This document shows positions 1 through 5,366 of a stretch of DNA of 5,366 bases, piece after piece; position 1 is the stretch's first letter, and each line of letters begins with the position of its first letter. The notes under the pieces were generated by a model that was not told where the DNA came from, did not search any database, and was given only the letters and a program-made list of their open reading frames with translations. Both the position numbers and the translations under genes were made by a program. The DNA is taken from contig JALXCH010000362.1 of NCBI GenBank assembly GCA_026991005.1, positions 1-5,366 on the forward strand, read 5' to 3'. The DNA is from Calditrichia bacterium (GTDB taxonomy: Bacteria > Calditrichota > Calditrichia > RBG-13-44-9).

Positions 1-64
1 GATGCTGGGGACCCATGTTGAGAACCAATCTGTCTCGCTTAAGCTCTTGCACAGTTTCAGGCAT
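1..64 (-). CDS. nuoD: NADH-quinone oxidoreductase subunit D, N-terminal fragment
   Basis: Only the first 21 codons are in the window; the gene runs off the left edge. The translation begins MPETVQELKRDRLVLNMGPQ and is followed by His, which matches the NuoD/49 kDa start, where a short leader precedes the conserved MGPQHP segment. NuoD is a peripheral-arm subunit of complex I that helps form the quinone-binding site together with NuoB. The ATG at 62-64 is the likely start because an in-frame TGA lies only two codons upstream (between it and the ATG are codons for Asn and Asp). The Shine-Dalgarno sequence is weak (a GGGTG stretch about nine bases upstream). It follows nuoC on the same strand after a 93-bp gap, longer than the near-contact between nuoA and nuoC, but no promoter or terminator is evident in that gap. 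Identification rests on a short stretch plus gene order. Confidence 0.85.
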   Translation of the reverse strand, partial: MPETVQELKRDRLVLNMGPQH

Positions 65-157
65 ATCGTTTCACACCCGTTTTTTCCAGATAAATCGTTC
101 GCTAATTAATCTATTCTAAAGGAACAGCCATCGTTTTCGTTTTACAGCATCGCAGTG

Positions 158-649
158 CTACTTCAAATCCAGAATCACGTCACGTTCACCGCGACCTCGT
201 AAGGGATAGTCTTTACGCAGGGGATAGCCGTCAAATACATCCGGCGTGAGGATACGGCGTAAATCGGGATGTCCCAGGAAGTTGAATCCAAACATCTCGT
301 AGGCTTCACGTTCCAGCCAGTTGGCCGCATTCCATAACGGCACCATGCTGGGAACATCCAGATCATCCTCGGGAACCCCCGTTTTTACCCGTACCCGGTG
401 ATTATTCTTAAAGGAATACAGGTGGTACACGACATCGAACCGGGGTTCACGTTCCTGTTTCAGGAAATCCACCCCGGTCAAATCGGTAAGGTAATCGAAT
501 TGAAGGTTGGCATCTTTTTTCAGGAACTCCATTAATTCAAATACCTGATTTTTGGGGATGCGAATACTCAACATACCCCGAAATTCTTCAAAGGTTGCTT
601 CAGGAAATTTTTGCGACACTGCATCCTGAATGTGTTTATTCTCAATCAT
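158..649 (-). CDS. nuoC: NADH-quinone oxidoreductase subunit C (30 kDa subunit)
   Basis: The 163-residue protein has the usual length for a stand-alone NuoC, not the NuoCD fusion. NuoC is a cofactor-free peripheral-arm subunit of complex I that packs against NuoD and NuoB. The 30 kDa signature is clear: ERE at 113-115, then YEMFGF and His127, with RRIL at 131-134. It is followed by the conserved GYPLRKDYPLRG block at 141-152. The N-terminal half (about 1-90) carries the alpha/beta fold with the FDYLTDLTGVDF segment at 51-62. The ATG at 649 is well supported by a GGGAG Shine-Dalgarno six bases upstream, located inside the last codons of nuoA, and the two genes are three bases apart, so translational coupling is likely. 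Downstream lies nuoD. No key residue appears to be missing. Confidence 0.96.
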   Translation of the reverse strand: MIENKHIQDAVSQKFPEATFEEFRGMLSIRIPKNQVFELMEFLKKDANLQFDYLTDLTGVDFLKQEREPRFDVVYHLYSFKNNHRVRVKTGVPEDDLDVPSMVPLWNAANWLEREAYEMFGFNFLGHPDLRRILTPDVFDGYPLRKDYPLRGRGERDVILDLK

Positions 650-652
650 TGG

Positions 653-1018
653 CTACTCCCACTTAAATGCACCGCGTTTCCAGAGGTAAAGGTAACCGGC
701 AAATAAAATTCCGATAAACACCATCATCTCCCAGAAGATAAACATACCATGGGAGAGGAACTTTTTGTACACCACCGCCCAGGGATACAGAAAAATCACT
801 TCCACATCAAACAGAATAAACATCATGGCTGTAATGTAAAAGCGGATGGGGAAACGAACCCGGGCATCCATCTGCGGTGGTAAACCCGACTCATACACCG
901 TTTGTTTTATGGTATCTTTTACACGGGGACTGATGATGTGACTTAAAATCAGGATCGCTGCAGCAATAACCAGAGCCAGAATCATCAGTATGAGAATAGG
1001 CAAATATTGTGATAGCAT
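653..1018 (-). CDS. nuoA: NADH-quinone oxidoreductase subunit A
   Basis: This is a 121-residue integral membrane subunit of complex I, typical in length for NuoA. It lies at the junction of the membrane and peripheral arms, next to the quinone chamber. Three hydrophobic helices are visible at about residues 5-29, 59-83 and 91-113. The long polar loop after helix 1 carries YESGLPP at 42-48, the counterpart of the family's YE(C/S)G motif, here with Ser instead of Cys as in many bacteria. Helix 2 contains the hallmark FDVEVIFLYPWAV at 70-82 with the buried acidic residues Asp71 and Glu73. The ATG at 1018 has an AGGAAA Shine-Dalgarno about eight bases upstream. It is the first nuo gene here and is followed three bases later by nuoC; nuoB, usually next, is missing from this position. 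Confidence 0.97.
   Translation of the reverse strand: MLSQYLPILILMILALVIAAAILILSHIISPRVKDTIKQTVYESGLPPQMDARVRFPIRFYITAMMFILFDVEVIFLYPWAVVYKKFLSHGMFIFWEMMVFIGILFAGYLYLWKRGAFKWE
656..660 (-). promoter_or_regulatory. Shine-Dalgarno of nuoC inside the nuoA 3' end
   Basis: GGGAG lies six bases before the nuoC ATG and overlaps the Trp-Glu codons that end nuoA. It fixes the nuoC start and suggests that ribosomes finishing nuoA feed nuoC directly. Confidence 0.7.
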
Positions 1019-1172: not shown

Positions 1173-1196
1173 GTATCGCAAACTTTAGTTTGCGAG
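1173..1196 (+). repeat. REP family 1, copy 1 (left outer)
   Basis: The GTAT foot is followed by CGCAAACTTTAGTTTGCG (1177-1194), an 8-bp perfect stem around a central TT, then AG. The 19-base core from 1178 recurs exactly at 1207, giving a 29-bp period. Confidence 0.9.
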
Positions 1197-1201
1197 GGTG
1201 T

Positions 1202-1225
1202 GTAATGCAAACTTTAGTTTGCGAG
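1202..1225 (+). repeat. REP family 1, copy 2 (left inner)
   Basis: The GTAA foot, one T, then GCAAACTTTAGTTTGC (1207-1222) and GAG. It has the same orientation as copy 1. The 7-bp stem is perfect, while the outermost pair seen in copy 1 is lost by a C-to-T change at 1206. It lies about 64 bases past the RAYT stop codon. Confidence 0.9.
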
Positions 1226-1288
1226 CCAAAACAAAATTTTATTGAATTCCACGTTTCCTTTGCTTTCCCACCTTTCTCGTCCTAAAAA

Positions 1289-1960
1289 TCACAAATAGAC
1301 ACAATAACTATAATTCCAATCTTCCCACCTGGAGACCAATCCTGCTTTAACCGGATCGTACAAAATATACTCAATTATCCGAACTAATTCTTCTACATCT
1401 CGCACATAATGGTCATAACTTTCGTGGTGCCAGAAATATCCGCTACGGTTCAAAACCTGATTACACTGTTGGGCCGTTGCCCCTTTTAACAATTGCATCA
1501 CTTTGGATAAAGGATACTTTTTCTTTTTCCTACCCACACTGATTTCCTTTTGCAAAACCGAAGCGAGGTTTTCTTCTTCTTTCAAATAAAATACTGAATG
1601 CACATGGTTTGGCATAATCGTGTAAGCTATTAAAGAATAAAACTTATCGTCCATCTCATGAAGTTTATTCTTTACAATATCAGCAATTTTTTCTTCCTTT
1701 AACCACACCGGACCAAACGCGGCGTGATTCAGTAATTGATCAAATTTGCCGAAATACTTTTTTTGAATTAAATATTTTTCCTCATTAATCTTTTTTCGGT
1801 TATTTCCATATTTTGAGGTTAGCTTTTCGATTTCCATTTCCATTTCTGATTTCAGCTTTTTAATCACATATAGGGGTAATGAACCCTTCAAGCGAAACGT
1901 TATAAAAAACACGGCATCCTCCGGATGGAGATGCGGTAAATTCCGCCGATATTGGATCAT
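1289..1960 (-). CDS. REP-associated tyrosine transposase (RAYT; Y1/HUH, IS200-like fold)
   Basis: The 223-residue protein belongs to the Y1_Tnp/IS200-like superfamily. These enzymes nick single-stranded DNA next to a hairpin and form a 5'-phosphotyrosine link. The N-terminal strand FFITFRL (18-24) is followed by a Lys/Glu-rich, probably helical insertion (about 32-70), then GPVWL (83-87). The metal-binding HUH motif is MPNHVH with His119 and His121. The C-terminal part has FWHHESYDHYVRD (176-188) and EYILYDPVKAGLV (197-209). By comparison with E. coli TnpA-REP as I recall it, Tyr198 is the probable nucleophile. The short length and flanking cognate REP hairpins argue for a RAYT rather than an IS200/IS605 transposase. 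The ATG at 1960 has GGGAG ten bases upstream. All key residues are present, so it may be active. It is more AT- and Lys-rich than neighbouring genes, consistent with transfer. Confidence 0.92.
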   Translation of the reverse strand: MIQYRRNLPHLHPEDAVFFITFRLKGSLPLYVIKKLKSEMEMEIEKLTSKYGNNRKKINEEKYLIQKKYFGKFDQLLNHAAFGPVWLKEEKIADIVKNKLHEMDDKFYSLIAYTIMPNHVHSVFYLKEEENLASVLQKEISVGRKKKKYPLSKVMQLLKGATAQQCNQVLNRSGYFWHHESYDHYVRDVEELVRIIEYILYDPVKAGLVSRWEDWNYSYCVYL

Positions 1961-2046
1961 TTCTTAAATACTCCCTGGAAACTCCCACTACAATTTCATT
2001 TATTTGAAAGTTAATGTTTTTATCTTTTAAAAACAAATTTCTATGC

Positions 2047-2061
2047 GTATCGCAAACTTTA
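2047..2061 (+). repeat. REP family 1, degenerate or half copy
   Basis: GTATCGCAAACTTTA is identical over 15 bases to the first part of copy 1, but the second stem arm is replaced by TTGTATGC and no good hairpin forms. It lies inside the unit, upstream of the RAYT start, and is either a decayed REP or a remnant of rearrangement. Confidence 0.6.
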
Positions 2062-2104
2062 TTGTATGCTAAATAAAATACCTATTTTGAAACAAATCAC
2101 AATT

Positions 2105-2125
2105 GCAAGCTAAAGCTTGCCCTAC
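2105..2125 (-). repeat. REP family 1, copy 4 (right inner, GC variant)
   Basis: Read on the minus strand: a GTAG foot, one G, then GCAAGCTTTAGCTTGC. Compared with the other copies both stem arms have changed together (A to G in one arm, T to C in the other), so the 7-bp stem stays perfect. Confidence 0.9.
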
Positions 2126-2127
2126 AC

Positions 2128-2151
2128 AACGCAAACTAAAGTTTGCGTTAC
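2128..2151 (-). repeat. REP family 1, copy 5 (right outer)
   Basis: Read on the minus strand: a GTAA foot followed by CGCAAACTTTAGTTTGCG, identical over these 18 bases to copy 1 but in the opposite orientation. The palindrome extends to 10 bp per arm (2128-2149). Its outer end lies 3 bp from the candidate rmlB -35 element. Confidence 0.9.
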
Positions 2152-2216: not shown

Positions 2217-3230
2217 ATGAAATCCATCCTGGTTACCGGCGGTGCCGGATTCATCGGAAGCAATTTCGTTCGGTACATGGTAAATAAATACCCTGACTAT
2301 CGCATCATCGTACTGGATGCCCTGACCTATGCTGGCAATCGCGAAAATCTCCAGGACCTGGAAGGTCGCCTGAATTATTTCTTTTACCACGGTAACATTT
2401 GCGATAAAGAGGTGGTGGATAATCTGGTGAGCAACGTGGATACCATCATCAACTTTGCTGCAGAAACCCACGTGGATCGCTCCATTCTGGAAGCGGGAAG
2501 TTTCATTCAAACCGACGTGGTGGGAACCTTCACCTTGCTGGAGGCTGCACGAAAATACGACATCGAACGTTACATTCAAATCTCCACTGATGAAGTGTAC
2601 GGTTCCATCGAAGACGGTTCCTTTACCGAAGAAAGTCCTTTGCAACCCAACAGTCCCTATTCCGCCAGTAAAGCCAGTGGCGATTTGATGGTGCGTGCTT
2701 ACCATCGCACTTACGGCTTACCTACAATCATTACCCGTAGTTCCAACAACTTTGGTCCCTATCAGTATCCGGAAAAACTCATTCCTTTATTTATTACCAA
2801 TGCCCTGGACGATCTCCCTCTGCCTTTGTATGGTGATGGTAAAAACGTACGGGATTGGCTTTACGTATTGGATAATTGCGAAGCCATTGACCTGGTGTTA
2901 CACAAAGGGAAAGTGGGTGAAGTGTACAACATTGGTGGCGGGAACGAGATGCAAAACATTCAGATTACCGAAATGATTTTGGAGCTATTGAACAAACCCA
3001 AATCGCTGATCCAGCCCGTTCCCGATCGTCTGGGGCACGACCGCCGCTACTCCGTGGACACCCAAAAAATTCGCGCACTGGGTTGGAAACCCCGGCACAA
3101 TTTCCAACAAGCGCTCCAAGAAACCGTTCGCTGGTATGTCGAACATGAGGATTGGTGGCGAGCCATCAAAGAAAAACAGGAAGAATTCAAACGCTACTAC
3201 CAGCAACAATATAAAACGCTTCATTCATAA
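2217..3230 (+). CDS. rmlB: dTDP-glucose 4,6-dehydratase
   Basis: This 337-residue extended short-chain dehydrogenase converts dTDP-glucose to dTDP-4-keto-6-deoxyglucose, the second step toward dTDP-L-rhamnose and other deoxysugars of cell-surface polysaccharides. It is cytosolic and uses tightly bound NAD+. The Rossmann motif TGGAGFIG is at 7-14 (Gly8, Gly11, Gly14). The catalytic set is visible: Thr124-Asp125-Glu126 in STDEVYG, where the Asp-Glu pair is specific to this dehydratase family, and Tyr148/Lys152 in YSASK. Further family blocks are AAETHVDRSI (81-90), RSSNNFGPYQYPEKLIP (174-190), GDGKNVRDWLYV (207-218) and DRLGHDRRYSVD (270-281). Length is normal and the start has a strong AAGGAG. 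It is transcribed divergently from the RAYT gene. The usual partners rmlA, rmlC and rmlD are not adjacent, so the pathway must be completed from elsewhere. Confidence 0.96.
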   Translation: MKSILVTGGAGFIGSNFVRYMVNKYPDYRIIVLDALTYAGNRENLQDLEGRLNYFFYHGNICDKEVVDNLVSNVDTIINFAAETHVDRSILEAGSFIQTDVVGTFTLLEAARKYDIERYIQISTDEVYGSIEDGSFTEESPLQPNSPYSASKASGDLMVRAYHRTYGLPTIITRSSNNFGPYQYPEKLIPLFITNALDDLPLPLYGDGKNVRDWLYVLDNCEAIDLVLHKGKVGEVYNIGGGNEMQNIQITEMILELLNKPKSLIQPVPDRLGHDRRYSVDTQKIRALGWKPRHNFQQALQETVRWYVEHEDWWRAIKEKQEEFKRYYQQQYKTLHS

Positions 3231-3521: not shown

Positions 3522-4250
3522 ATGCACCAGGAAGGAAAACAGAAAGAAAAGCTGCCCTTGCCAAAAAAATTGATTCTTTTTGACATAGATGGTACCCTGG
3601 TACTTACCGGGGGAATTGCCATGGGGAAAATGGTAGAAGCCGTTTCCCGCGTTACGGGTTTTCCGGTTCAATGGCATGTACGGGATTTTGTGGGGTACAC
3701 AGATCGTTACATACTGCGCACCCTTTTACAGCGCTGCGGTGTTTCTGAGGGACAGGTGGAGGACTTAACCGAAGCGGCATTGAGTTATTATCTGGAGGGG
3801 ATTCGGGATGCTCTGCGGTCGGACGGAGCAGTGAGGGTGTTACCCGGAGTAAAAGCCCTGCTGGAAGCTCTCAGTCGGGACAAACGATTTGCCCTGGGAC
3901 TGTTAACCGGCAATGTACGAGAGGGAGCTCATTACAAGCTGGCGCCGGTGGGACTGGAGCGGTACTTCCTGGTAGGCGCCTACGGGGACGATGCCCTGCT
4001 GCGGGACGACCTGCCACCGGTAGCCATTCAGCGGGCAGAGAAACATTACCAGTGCTTTTTTGAGAAAAAGGACATCTGGATAGTAGGCGATAGCGTAAAC
4101 GACATCCGTTGCGCCCATGCTCACCACTTGCGCAGCCTGGCCGTCGGTACGGGAAAAATCCCCGCAGAAGAACTCCGTAAATATCACCCCGACGTGTTCC
4201 TCCCGGATTTAACCCCTACCGAGAAGATTATTCGTATCCTATCCCAATAA
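3522..4250 (+). CDS. HAD-superfamily hydrolase, phosphoglycolate phosphatase-like
   Basis: The 242-residue protein carries all four HAD motifs: DIDGT with nucleophile Asp21 and acid/base Asp23, LLTGN with Thr129 (motif II), Lys139 in HYKL (motif III), and GDSVND with Asp190 and Asp194 (Mg2+ binding, motif IV). A helical cap occupies about residues 30-105 between motifs I and II, placing it in HAD subfamily I with Gph and beta-phosphoglucomutase-like enzymes. It probably hydrolyses a small phosphomonoester; phosphoglycolate is one possibility, but the substrate cannot be read from the sequence. A 17-residue Lys-rich extension precedes the first strand. The ATG at 3522 lacks a clear Shine-Dalgarno, and a purine-rich AGGAAGG lies just inside the gene, so a later TTG start cannot be excluded. 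It is more GC-rich than the RAYT gene. It stands alone on the plus strand, 291 bp after rmlB. Confidence 0.88.
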   Translation: MHQEGKQKEKLPLPKKLILFDIDGTLVLTGGIAMGKMVEAVSRVTGFPVQWHVRDFVGYTDRYILRTLLQRCGVSEGQVEDLTEAALSYYLEGIRDALRSDGAVRVLPGVKALLEALSRDKRFALGLLTGNVREGAHYKLAPVGLERYFLVGAYGDDALLRDDLPPVAIQRAEKHYQCFFEKKDIWIVGDSVNDIRCAHAHHLRSLAVGTGKIPAEELRKYHPDVFLPDLTPTEKIIRILSQ

Positions 4251-4256
4251 AACCCG

Positions 4257-4281
4257 GTAGCCGCGGGCTTCATGCCCGCGG
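4257..4281 (+). repeat. REP family 2, unit 1
   Basis: A GTAG foot is directly followed by CCGCGGGC-TTCAT-GCCCGCGG (4261-4281), a perfect 8-bp GC-rich stem with a 5-base loop, then TAAATTAAT. It begins 7 bp after the HAD stop codon. Without a following T-run it is not a classical intrinsic terminator, though the hairpin could protect the mRNA 3' end. Confidence 0.85.
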
Positions 4282-4305
4282 TAAATTAATGCACCGCAAT
4301 CAAAG

Positions 4306-4326
4306 CCGCAGGCTTTACGCCTCCGG
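4306..4326 (+). repeat. REP family 2, unit 2
   Basis: CCGCAGGC-TTTAC-GCCTCCGG has the same layout as its neighbours but carries one C:C mismatch in the stem (C4309/C4323), followed by TAAATTTCAT. It starts 45 bp after unit 1. Confidence 0.8.
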
Positions 4327-4354
4327 TAAATTTCATACCCTACGAACCTAATAA

Positions 4355-4375
4355 CCGCAGGCTTCATGCCTGCGG
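4355..4375 (+). repeat. REP family 2, unit 3
   Basis: CCGCAGGC-TTCAT-GCCTGCGG is a perfect 8-bp stem with the same loop as unit 1, followed by AAATTAAATA. Relative to unit 1, a G:C pair has become A:T through changes in both arms. It starts 49 bp after unit 2 and ends 35 bp before the ATPase stop codon. Confidence 0.85.
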
Positions 4376-4410
4376 AAATTAAATATTCTAAAAATGGGCA
4401 ACTACCCTCT

Positions 4411-5366
4411 TTACAACAATTTAAACCTGGAGTAAATCTCCCAGGGATACATCGTTTCAACTCCGGAAGAATGCTTCCCCTGTTCGAAGCAAATTCCGTA
4501 CACTTCACCCTGGTATTGCTCTTGAAATGCTTGTAATGGCCTCGCTCGAAGCTGGGCAGAATTCATCTTTACTTCCAGAGCATACAAACCATCTCTGGTG
4601 TCCAGAATAAAATCGATTTCTTTTTTGTCCCGAGTACGCCAGAAATGAATAGGTATTTCGGGGAATATTTTGGTGAATTCTGTAAAAATTGCTGTTTCCA
4701 GAGCATTTCCCGAAAAAAAATCGGGGATTTCGCGAAAAATCAACATGTGCATTAACCCTGTATCCAGAAAGAAAATTTTCGGGCGCTTGAAGAGTTCCTT
4801 GCGCATGTTACCGGCAAAGGGGGAAACTCTTCGCATTACGTAAGTGTTTTCCAGAATAAAGAGGTAATCCTCCAGAGTAGGACGCGAAATCCCGGTGGTA
4901 TTCGACAATTCGGCTAAATTTAATAAAGAAGCACTTTGTTGAGCTAAAACCCGGAGTAATTTATTAAACTTGTCAATCTGTCGAATATTACCCAGGTCCC
5001 GGATGTCCGCCTTTAAATAGGTGTCGATGATCTGACGTAAATAAACTTCTTTAACCTCCTTCTCCTCCGTTAATACGATTTTGGGGAAACCACCAAATAA
5101 AATATATTCCCTGTAGAGCTGTCGGAGTCTTTCGACGGAGGCAGGGGTGGTAACGGGTTGGGTAAGGTCAAAGGGCTCTTCTTTAAATGTTAGAAACTCC
5201 TGAAAGCTCAGGGGGAATAATTCAAAATTGACAGTACGTCCCACCAAACTGTCCCGGAATTTACTGCGGATGGCAAACGTTGAGCTACCAGTAACAATCA
5301 GCTTTAAATCGGGGTAATGGTCGTGTAGTAATTTTAGAAAAGAAGAGGGATCATTAAGAAGCTGAA
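4411..5366 (-). CDS. AAA_14 / DUF4143 family ATPase, C-terminal part (5' end outside window)
   Basis: The reading frame stays open to the right edge, giving 317 codons of a longer protein. The first visible residues, QLLNDPSSFLKLL, correspond to the segment just after the Walker B Asp-Glu of AAA_14 proteins, so the P-loop and Walker B lie beyond the edge. Next comes the sensor-like LIVTGSS (22-28 from the edge) and SLVGRTVNFELFPLSFQEF (39-57), typical of the family. The DUF4143 half follows: YREYILFGGFPKIV, then a winged-helix-like LAELSNTTGISRPTLEDYL. It ends with a PD-(D/E)XK-like core in which FWRTRDKKEIDFIL and LYALEVKMN supply the Asp and the E-x-K. These proteins are common in Bacteroidota and many archaea, and their cellular role is poorly defined. 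A TTG codon at 5247 could be mistaken for the start, but the homology continues upstream. The gene is convergent with the HAD gene. Confidence 0.9.
   Translation of the reverse strand, partial: QLLNDPSSFLKLLHDHYPDLKLIVTGSSTFAIRSKFRDSLVGRTVNFELFPLSFQEFLTFKEEPFDLTQPVTTPASVERLRQLYREYILFGGFPKIVLTEEKEVKEVYLRQIIDTYLKADIRDLGNIRQIDKFNKLLRVLAQQSASLLNLAELSNTTGISRPTLEDYLFILENTYVMRRVSPFAGNMRKELFKRPKIFFLDTGLMHMLIFREIPDFFSGNALETAIFTEFTKIFPEIPIHFWRTRDKKEIDFILDTRDGLYALEVKMNSAQLRARPLQAFQEQYQGEVYGICFEQGKHSSGVETMYPWEIYSRFKLL

Follow-up and report, generated by a model that had tools for sequence, protein, structure and literature searches.

A contig of a Calditrichia bacterium (JALXCH010000362.1 of assembly GCA_026991005.1) carries a RAYT gene between REP-like hairpins, most of which do not open with GTAG. 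REPs are defined by a 5' GT[A/G]G tetranucleotide in the available sections of PMC3686654, and the foot linked to RAYTs is given as GTAG or GT[A/G]G in the accessible parts of PMC3733652, PMC2817692, PMC3686654, PMC6006769, and PMC8266576. Do this gene and these hairpins form a REPtron with a foot of another kind, or are they a mobile unit, a decaying remnant, or a gene beside ordinary terminators? A first-pass annotation of the window (the whole stretch of 5,366 nt that we analyzed) had proposed a REPtron with feet departing from GTAG in a little-studied lineage, and our analysis supports this. The locus is probably a REPtron consisting of a TnpAREP-type HUH nuclease gene and its cognate REP hairpins, with a clade-wide foot of GTA plus an unpaired fourth base that covaries with the residue equivalent to Q95 of the E. 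coli enzyme.

Architecture of the locus

The RAYT/TnpAREP-like HUH Y1 transposase gene (1960..1289, minus strand, 223 aa) was assigned from its ORF, profile matches, phmmer, and a fold search with an AF2 model. It lies between the divergent genes nuoA (1018..653, minus) and rmlB (2217-3230, plus). These two genes, nuoC (649..158, minus), and a HAD-type hydrolase gene (3522-4250, plus) were identified from the ORF list and profile matches, and a DUF4143/AAA_14 ATPase gene (4411-5364, minus) is cut by the window end. Of the best NuoC matches with a name, most belong to Calditrichaeota/Calditrichia, and the closest NuoC in 25 candidate genomes of relatives was 50% identical. On the minus strand of window positions 1-1018, nuoA is followed by a 3-base gap, nuoC, and an apparent nuoD start (MPETVQELKRDRLVLNMGPQH); nuoB is missing from the usual interval between nuoA and nuoC.

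Four intact hairpins and a degenerate one frame the RAYT gene. On its 3' side are the outer copy R1 (1173-1193, plus; GTAT-C-GCAAACT-TT-AGTTTGC) and its direct repeat R2 (1202-1222, plus; GTAA-T-GCAAACT..). On its 5' side are R4 (2125-2105, minus; GTAG-G-GCAAGCT.., with stem GCAAGCT/AGCTTGC) and the outer copy R5 (2151-2131, minus; GTAA-C-GCAAACT..), along with the degenerate R3 (2047-2067, plus; GTATCGCAAACTTTATTGTAT), which has a GTAT foot and a broken 3' arm. Each intact copy consists of GTA, two nucleotides, and a 7-bp stem with a TT apex; we wrote the family as the search pattern GTANNGCAARCTNNAGYTTGC. A scan for GTA, two nucleotides, and a 7-bp hairpin found five sites in the window (R1, R2, R4, R5, and one site of another family at 4257), while 200 dinucleotide-shuffled windows had a mean of 0.03 sites and a maximum of 1. 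This confirmed the framing of the gene by two hairpins on each strand that had been described at first reading. The match between the outer copies was borne out as well, R1 and R5 being identical at 21 of 22 bases in inverted order.

As expected of a REPtron, the gene has hairpins of opposite orientation on its two sides, and the feet of all four intact copies are directed away from it. The doublets had been called mirror images, which is correct across the gene, but R1/R2 and R4/R5 are each direct repeats rather than inverted pairs, and only the degenerate R3 and R4 are arranged in the feet-outward order of a REPIN. Three of the four intact copies (GTAT, GTAA, GTAA) depart from GT[A/G]G, and GTAG occurs only in R4; the window is thus a mixed locus with A, A, G, and T as fourth foot bases. 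The scan site at 4257..4280 (plus, foot GTAG) belongs to a second, unrelated REP-like family and is not part of the REPtron. This family comprises three copies of a longer hairpin at 4251-4384, with the foot GTAG in the first copy and AAAG and ATAA in the others, and the window holds no second RAYT.

The RAYT protein

The ORF is intact. Its HUH motif (H119-H121) lies within NHVH at residues 118-121, H119 being invariant and H121 nearly invariant among 28 aligned rows. W177, R187, and Y198, the presumed catalytic tyrosine, are also retained. Profile scores were marginal: 23.1 bits for Pfam Y1_Tnp (cut-off 23) and 73.4 bits for the NCBIfam REP-associated tyrosine transposase (REP_Tyr_transpos; below the cut-off of 80). 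At an E-value of 0.001 we found 1051 homologues, and the names among the matches listed include Bacteroidetes, Ignavibacteriales, Caldithrix, and Chloroflexi. A search of viral contigs found no RAYT relatives.

The predicted fold of the protein most resembles that of E. coli TnpAREP. Among 546 PDB matches to its AF2 model (pLDDT 84.8, pTM 0.81), the sole one with an E-value below 0.001 was 4er8_A, the RAYT in complex with a REP (E-value 7.7e-7; TM-scores of 0.47 and 0.62 when normalized by query and by target), and phmmer against PDB sequences also recovered 4er8 (E 5.4e-4). The E. coli REPtron (subclass 2.2, Bertels group 2) shares with the window the HUH nuclease fold, REPs in inverted order around the gene, and the aligned pairs Y198/Y115, H184/H101, and R187/R104. 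It differs in having Q95 and E100 where the window protein has H178 and D183, and its REPs, according to the available text of PMC8266576, begin with GTAG and have a bulge in the stem, whereas in the window GTA is followed by A, T, or G and the stems are short and perfect.

The protein reads W177-H178 in place of the WQ motif of subclasses 2.4 and 2.7, and YILYDP (Y198-ILY-D-P) in place of Y---NP, with the Y and the P retained. Across 81 rows (the best 80 of 432 relatives plus the window), the Q95-equivalent residue is Q in 50 and H in 15; position 202 is N in 79 and a gap in one, and D in the window alone. D202, the score below the NCBIfam cut-off, and the marginal Pfam score suggest that the window protein may be decaying. 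It is unlikely, in our judgment, that the whole REPtron is decaying, with non-G feet and odd residues as drift after loss of function rather than as a recognition state. The degenerate R3, D202, the NCBIfam score, and the mixture of fourth bases among the window's own copies agree with such drift; the intact ORF and its retained HUH, W177, R187, and Y198 do not, nor does the fact that P0001 represents five member sequences on two contigs. The feet of relatives bear on this further, as described below.

Hairpins and the GTA foot among relatives

Searches of relatives' genomes sampled a part of each group. A scan of genome contigs retained the best 80 of 432 relative loci, which come from Chloroflexi, Ignavibacteria, Bacteroidota, Poribacteria, Cloacimonadota, Planctomycetota, and others and form part of our discovery set. 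In the full discovery set, 181 loci were reduced to 163 full-length loci; filtering to below 97% identity left 154, the requirement for matched hairpins 101, and that for at least two unambiguous feet per locus 69. The same rules took a held-out set from 81 to 80, 68, 39, and 27 loci. Double-foot copies (GTA on both sides) were excluded from base counts.

Matched hairpins lay on both sides of the gene at 56 of the 81 loci (best 80 of 432 relatives plus the window), where no foot trinucleotide was as frequent as GTA (234 of 291 copies, 48 of 56 loci). In the enlarged discovery set they were present on both sides at 101 of 154 non-redundant RAYT loci and, by the rule used, absent at 53. The foot was GTA in 391 of 501 copies and GTA was commonest at 88 of the 101 loci, 13 not showing it; the held-out loci behaved similarly (128 of 159 copies, 33 of 39 loci). 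GTA is accordingly the conserved part of the foot in the clade, though not at every locus. At one relative locus, on a contig labelled Desulfatirhabdium, the RAYT has REP arrays on both sides whose 15 readable feet are all GTAA.

These data also address whether the hairpins could be ordinary terminators of transcription, or form RNA structures, and have nothing to do with the gene beside them, which their intergenic positions among nuoA, the RAYT gene, and rmlB would allow. We consider this highly improbable: a search of Rfam gave no match up to an E-value of 0.5, 196 of 217 copies have the GTA foot two nucleotides from a 7-bp arm (best 80 of 432 loci), and RAYTs of many phyla are accompanied by matched hairpins with a GTA foot. 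Relatives resemble REPINs or BIMEs in that their adjacent REPs are often feet-outward (53 of 120 adjacent pairs near RAYTs, with 36 direct, in the best 80 of 432 loci; 8 of 11 in genome G771, described below), while the intact doublets of the window differ in being direct repeats.

The fourth base of the foot

Among 354 unambiguous feet of the enlarged set, the fourth base was A in 138, G in 134, C in 52, and T in 30. It may thus be any letter among relatives, but it is usually one letter per locus. At loci whose RAYT has Gln at the Q95-equivalent position, 567 of 800 within-locus pairs had the same letter (shuffled mean 344), and at His loci 103 of 207 did (shuffled mean 68, shuffled maximum 104). 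Eleven of the 20 His loci, counting the window among the 20, use a single letter, which is never G. This does not suit a reading of the non-G feet as drift. The foot had been described as a relaxed GTAN; the part of this description that stands is that the fourth base can be other than G, but in the clade it is uniform within loci and tracks the Q95-equivalent residue. The departure from the GTAG foot is clade-wide and patterned, not confined to the window.

Two other accounts of the fourth base were tried. Its role as a base of the stem was rejected: it was paired in 37 of 164 copies at mixed loci, against 44.0 expected, although pooled copies gave 100 of 287 against 79.0 in shuffles; the next base was paired in 71% of the 287. 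A guide model, in which the fourth base is complementary to an N4'-T cut dinucleotide at an assumed position, was not supported, reaching p below 0.05 within mixed loci at 0 of 26 fixed offsets, and at 7 of 46 offsets with pooled copies.

Covariation with the Q95-equivalent residue

In the discovery set, G was the majority fourth base at 27 of 45 Gln loci and at 1 of 24 non-Gln loci (His 0/14, other residues 1/10). When every alignment column was scanned, the strongest of 386 residue tests was that of the Q95-equivalent (z 5.0), a value that none of 5000 permutations attained; the residue had first been examined alone in 80 loci, so the later scan was unguided but not blind. Among held-out loci, some of them from genomes that had also supplied discovery loci, G was the majority at 16 of 20 Gln loci and 0 of 7 non-Gln loci (p 0.0004), and at 13 of 15 and 0 of 4 (p 0.004) for rows that shared less than 80% identity with every discovery row. 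Both sets together gave G majorities at 43 of 65 Gln, 0 of 20 His, and 1 of 11 other loci. Mean base shares were G 0.65, A 0.24, and C 0.08 at Gln loci and C 0.46, A 0.40, and G 0.07 at His loci. Judged from aligned proteins and feet, the fourth base in this clade covaries with the Q95-equivalent residue, Gln going with G (then A) and His with C or A. The His178 of the window protein would be in keeping with its mostly non-G feet.

Shared ancestry rather than recognition might produce the same association, but we find this doubtful. A quick tree required 16 changes between Gln and non-Gln, and independent pairs drawn over all branches of the best quick tree had a median of 16, of which 14 pointed the same way and 0 the opposite way (range opposite 0-2; sign test median p 1e-4, worst 0.007). 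The starred (well-supported) branches gave 4 independent pairs, too few for significance, and 33 of 66 inner forks of the tree are open; both of these, and the overlap in source genomes between the held-out and discovery rows, leave room for ancestry. On the side of recognition, the E. coli residue of this column is reported among the GTAG contacts (PMC6006769 and PMC8266576, available sections). The accessible part of PMC6006769 describes Q95 as well conserved in subclasses 2.2, 2.4, 2.5, and 2.7.

The Q95-equivalent residue may itself read the fourth base. It may not be the reader, or the sole one, since in E. coli TnpAREP the contacts to the final two bases of GTAG are made by G160 and E161 in the C-terminal tail (PMC8266576, as far as its text was available); the uncertain link of the copies in one Gln genome to its RAYT (G016, below) also weighs against the residue as sole reader. 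Because a G majority is missing at 22 of the 65 Gln loci, 4 of which have a C majority, Gln is not sufficient for G.

Dispersed REPs in the genomes of relatives

We searched 251 genomes of one order with the pattern GTANNGCRRVMTNNAKBYYGC, built from the stems of this group, and scored RAYT presence as an A1-type RAYT at an E-value up to 1e-50. Of the 27 genomes that had such a RAYT, 17 contained at least 10 REP copies, as did 10 of the 224 that lacked one (p 5e-13); the former had a median of 27 copies per genome and the latter a mean of 1.6. The first-pass annotation would have been contradicted by a repeat found only at its own locus, or abundant in genomes lacking this RAYT type. In the relatives' genomes, to which this comparison applies, REPs proved to be dispersed in several, yet the 10 REP-rich genomes without a detected RAYT count on the other side; these may hold more distant or unassembled RAYTs. 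Four genomes without a detected A1-type RAYT (G769, G843, G711, and G668) had 49, 37, 30, and 27 REP matches, and most of the G668 copies among the matches listed are palindromes with two feet, which the pattern hit on either strand.

Genome G771, a single 3.97-Mb contig with a His RAYT, has 48 REP sites, 42 of them with perfect stems. Copies with GCAA.. stems, the family of its RAYT's own REP, have GTAC feet in 12 of 14 cases, while GCGA/GCGG stems have GTAA in 20 of 28. Eleven adjacent REP pairs lie within 150 bp of each other against 0.08 expected. In 20 regions of this genome, 14 of 34 sites were inside ORFs of at least 100 aa, which cover 84% of the region bases.

Foot letters were also counted in genomes chosen after the feet at their RAYT loci were known. 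The His genomes had GTAC in 60 of 69 copies among the matches listed (G003, 141 copies in total), GTAA in 41 of 45 (G005), and GTAA in 14 of 22 (G004); copy numbers of this order do not fit a family decaying with its enzyme. The Gln genomes had GTAG in 11 of 11 (G011), 47 of 57 (G012), and 30 of 30 copies (G016). These counts include copies at the RAYT loci (14 of 57 in G012, 4 of 11 in G011, and 3 of the 69 listed in G003), and in all six genomes they show that the locus letter persists, without testing the residue independently. The G016 copies share stem letters, but not the loop, with the hairpins beside its RAYT, and may not belong to that RAYT. G015 had 3 copies (2 GTAG, 1 GTAC) and G010 had 93. 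Two genomes with Gln RAYTs, G060 and G813, were rejected as an independent test of the residue; their many GTAC or GTAA REPs have stems that differ from those beside the RAYTs. Two contigs of G006 carry a fixed GTAA foot, one (C174) in tandem REP arrays with spacings of 39 and 84 bp and the other (C117) in a plus/minus REP pair repeated about every 77 bp.

The earlier suggestion that the whole unit moves, as an IS200/IS605-like insertion sequence with the REP doublets as its ends, was not supported and seems improbable to us. The near-identical inverted outer copies, the relationship of the protein to HUH Y1 transposases, and the spread of clade RAYTs over many phyla (best 80 of 432 loci) are what such an element would have. 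The doublets, however, are direct REP repeats rather than distinct left and right ends, and the hairpins of relatives are dispersed without the gene. Among hand-mapped full-length loci, taken from 29 relative genomes with two or more members rather than comprising every match in them, 1 of 34 within-genome RAYT pairs was at least 90% identical (G1228, 96%). From this figure, the RAYT gene looks resident and the hairpins look like the spreading part. The introduction of PMC8266576, the portion consulted, likewise reports no evidence of tnpAREP mobility.

As a REPtron, the locus would work by analogy with described systems. A TnpAREP-like protein would bind the folded single-stranded REP through its 5' foot and stem-loop, and its HUH/tyrosine centre would cut near the REP and then join ends. 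REP and REPIN copies would scatter over time while the gene itself stayed in place.

Comparison with known RAYT systems

The following comparisons with subclasses draw on Table 1 and the other available parts of Quentin et al. (2018; PMC6006769). Subclass 2.4, like the window clade scattered across phyla, has the NH[IFV]H motif in common with the window protein, and its YIxNNP is matched by the consensus of the window clade (YILNNP), the window itself having YILYDP. It differs in its WQ motif, its median length of 194 aa, and its long or double-foot REPs, where the window protein has WH and 223 aa. Subclass 2.7 is alike in [ND]HVH, YI[LR][NQ]NP (compared with the clade consensus), and a median of 213 aa, but has WQ, long REPs with GT[AG]G, and a distribution in Cyanobacteria and a few other phyla. 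Subclass 2.6 and class 3 TnpAY1 are a precedent for flanking structures without GT[AG]G; these structures are weaker and atypical, whereas the window has perfect 7-bp stems and keeps GTA, and the Y motif of subclass 2.6, YIH[QN]NP, is unlike that of the window protein.

The Marinomonas REPtron Mb (subclass 2.5, group 3) resembles the window in its TTTA loop and in having a short, perfect stem separated from the foot by two bases, and differs in its native GTAG foot and in the subclass 2.5 motifs DH[LF]H and YI[VI]ANP. In the available text of PMC8266576, the Mb enzyme cut changed feet in vitro, GTAC moving the cut to GA or GT sites, while a GTAC foot abolished cutting by the Stenotrophomonas enzyme. 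That text describes REP recognition through loop, stem, and GTAG contacts and names no residue as responsible for a change of the fourth base. A CGTC superfamily is described as having no dedicated transposase in the part of PMC3733652 consulted. In the RAYT/REP literature covered, mostly open-access and in part as excerpts, we found no description of a family whose foot is GTA followed by a base other than G, and none linking the fourth base to Q95.

Significance for REP recognition

A switchable code is a tentative but plausible reading of these results: the Q95-equivalent residue would set the permitted fourth base (G or A for Gln, C or A for His) and let several REP families coexist under separate enzymes. 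Coexistence of families in one genome is suggested by the GTAC and GTAA families of G771. How domesticated transposases distinguish their own REPs from those of other families is an open question, which the covarying residue addresses, and such a residue makes REP discrimination testable by one swap. If the covariation holds, REP families with GTAA, GTAC, or GTAT feet would be overlooked by searches demanding GTAG or GTGG, and surveys based on GTAG or GTGG would leave families undetected in Chloroflexota, Poribacteria, and allied phyla.
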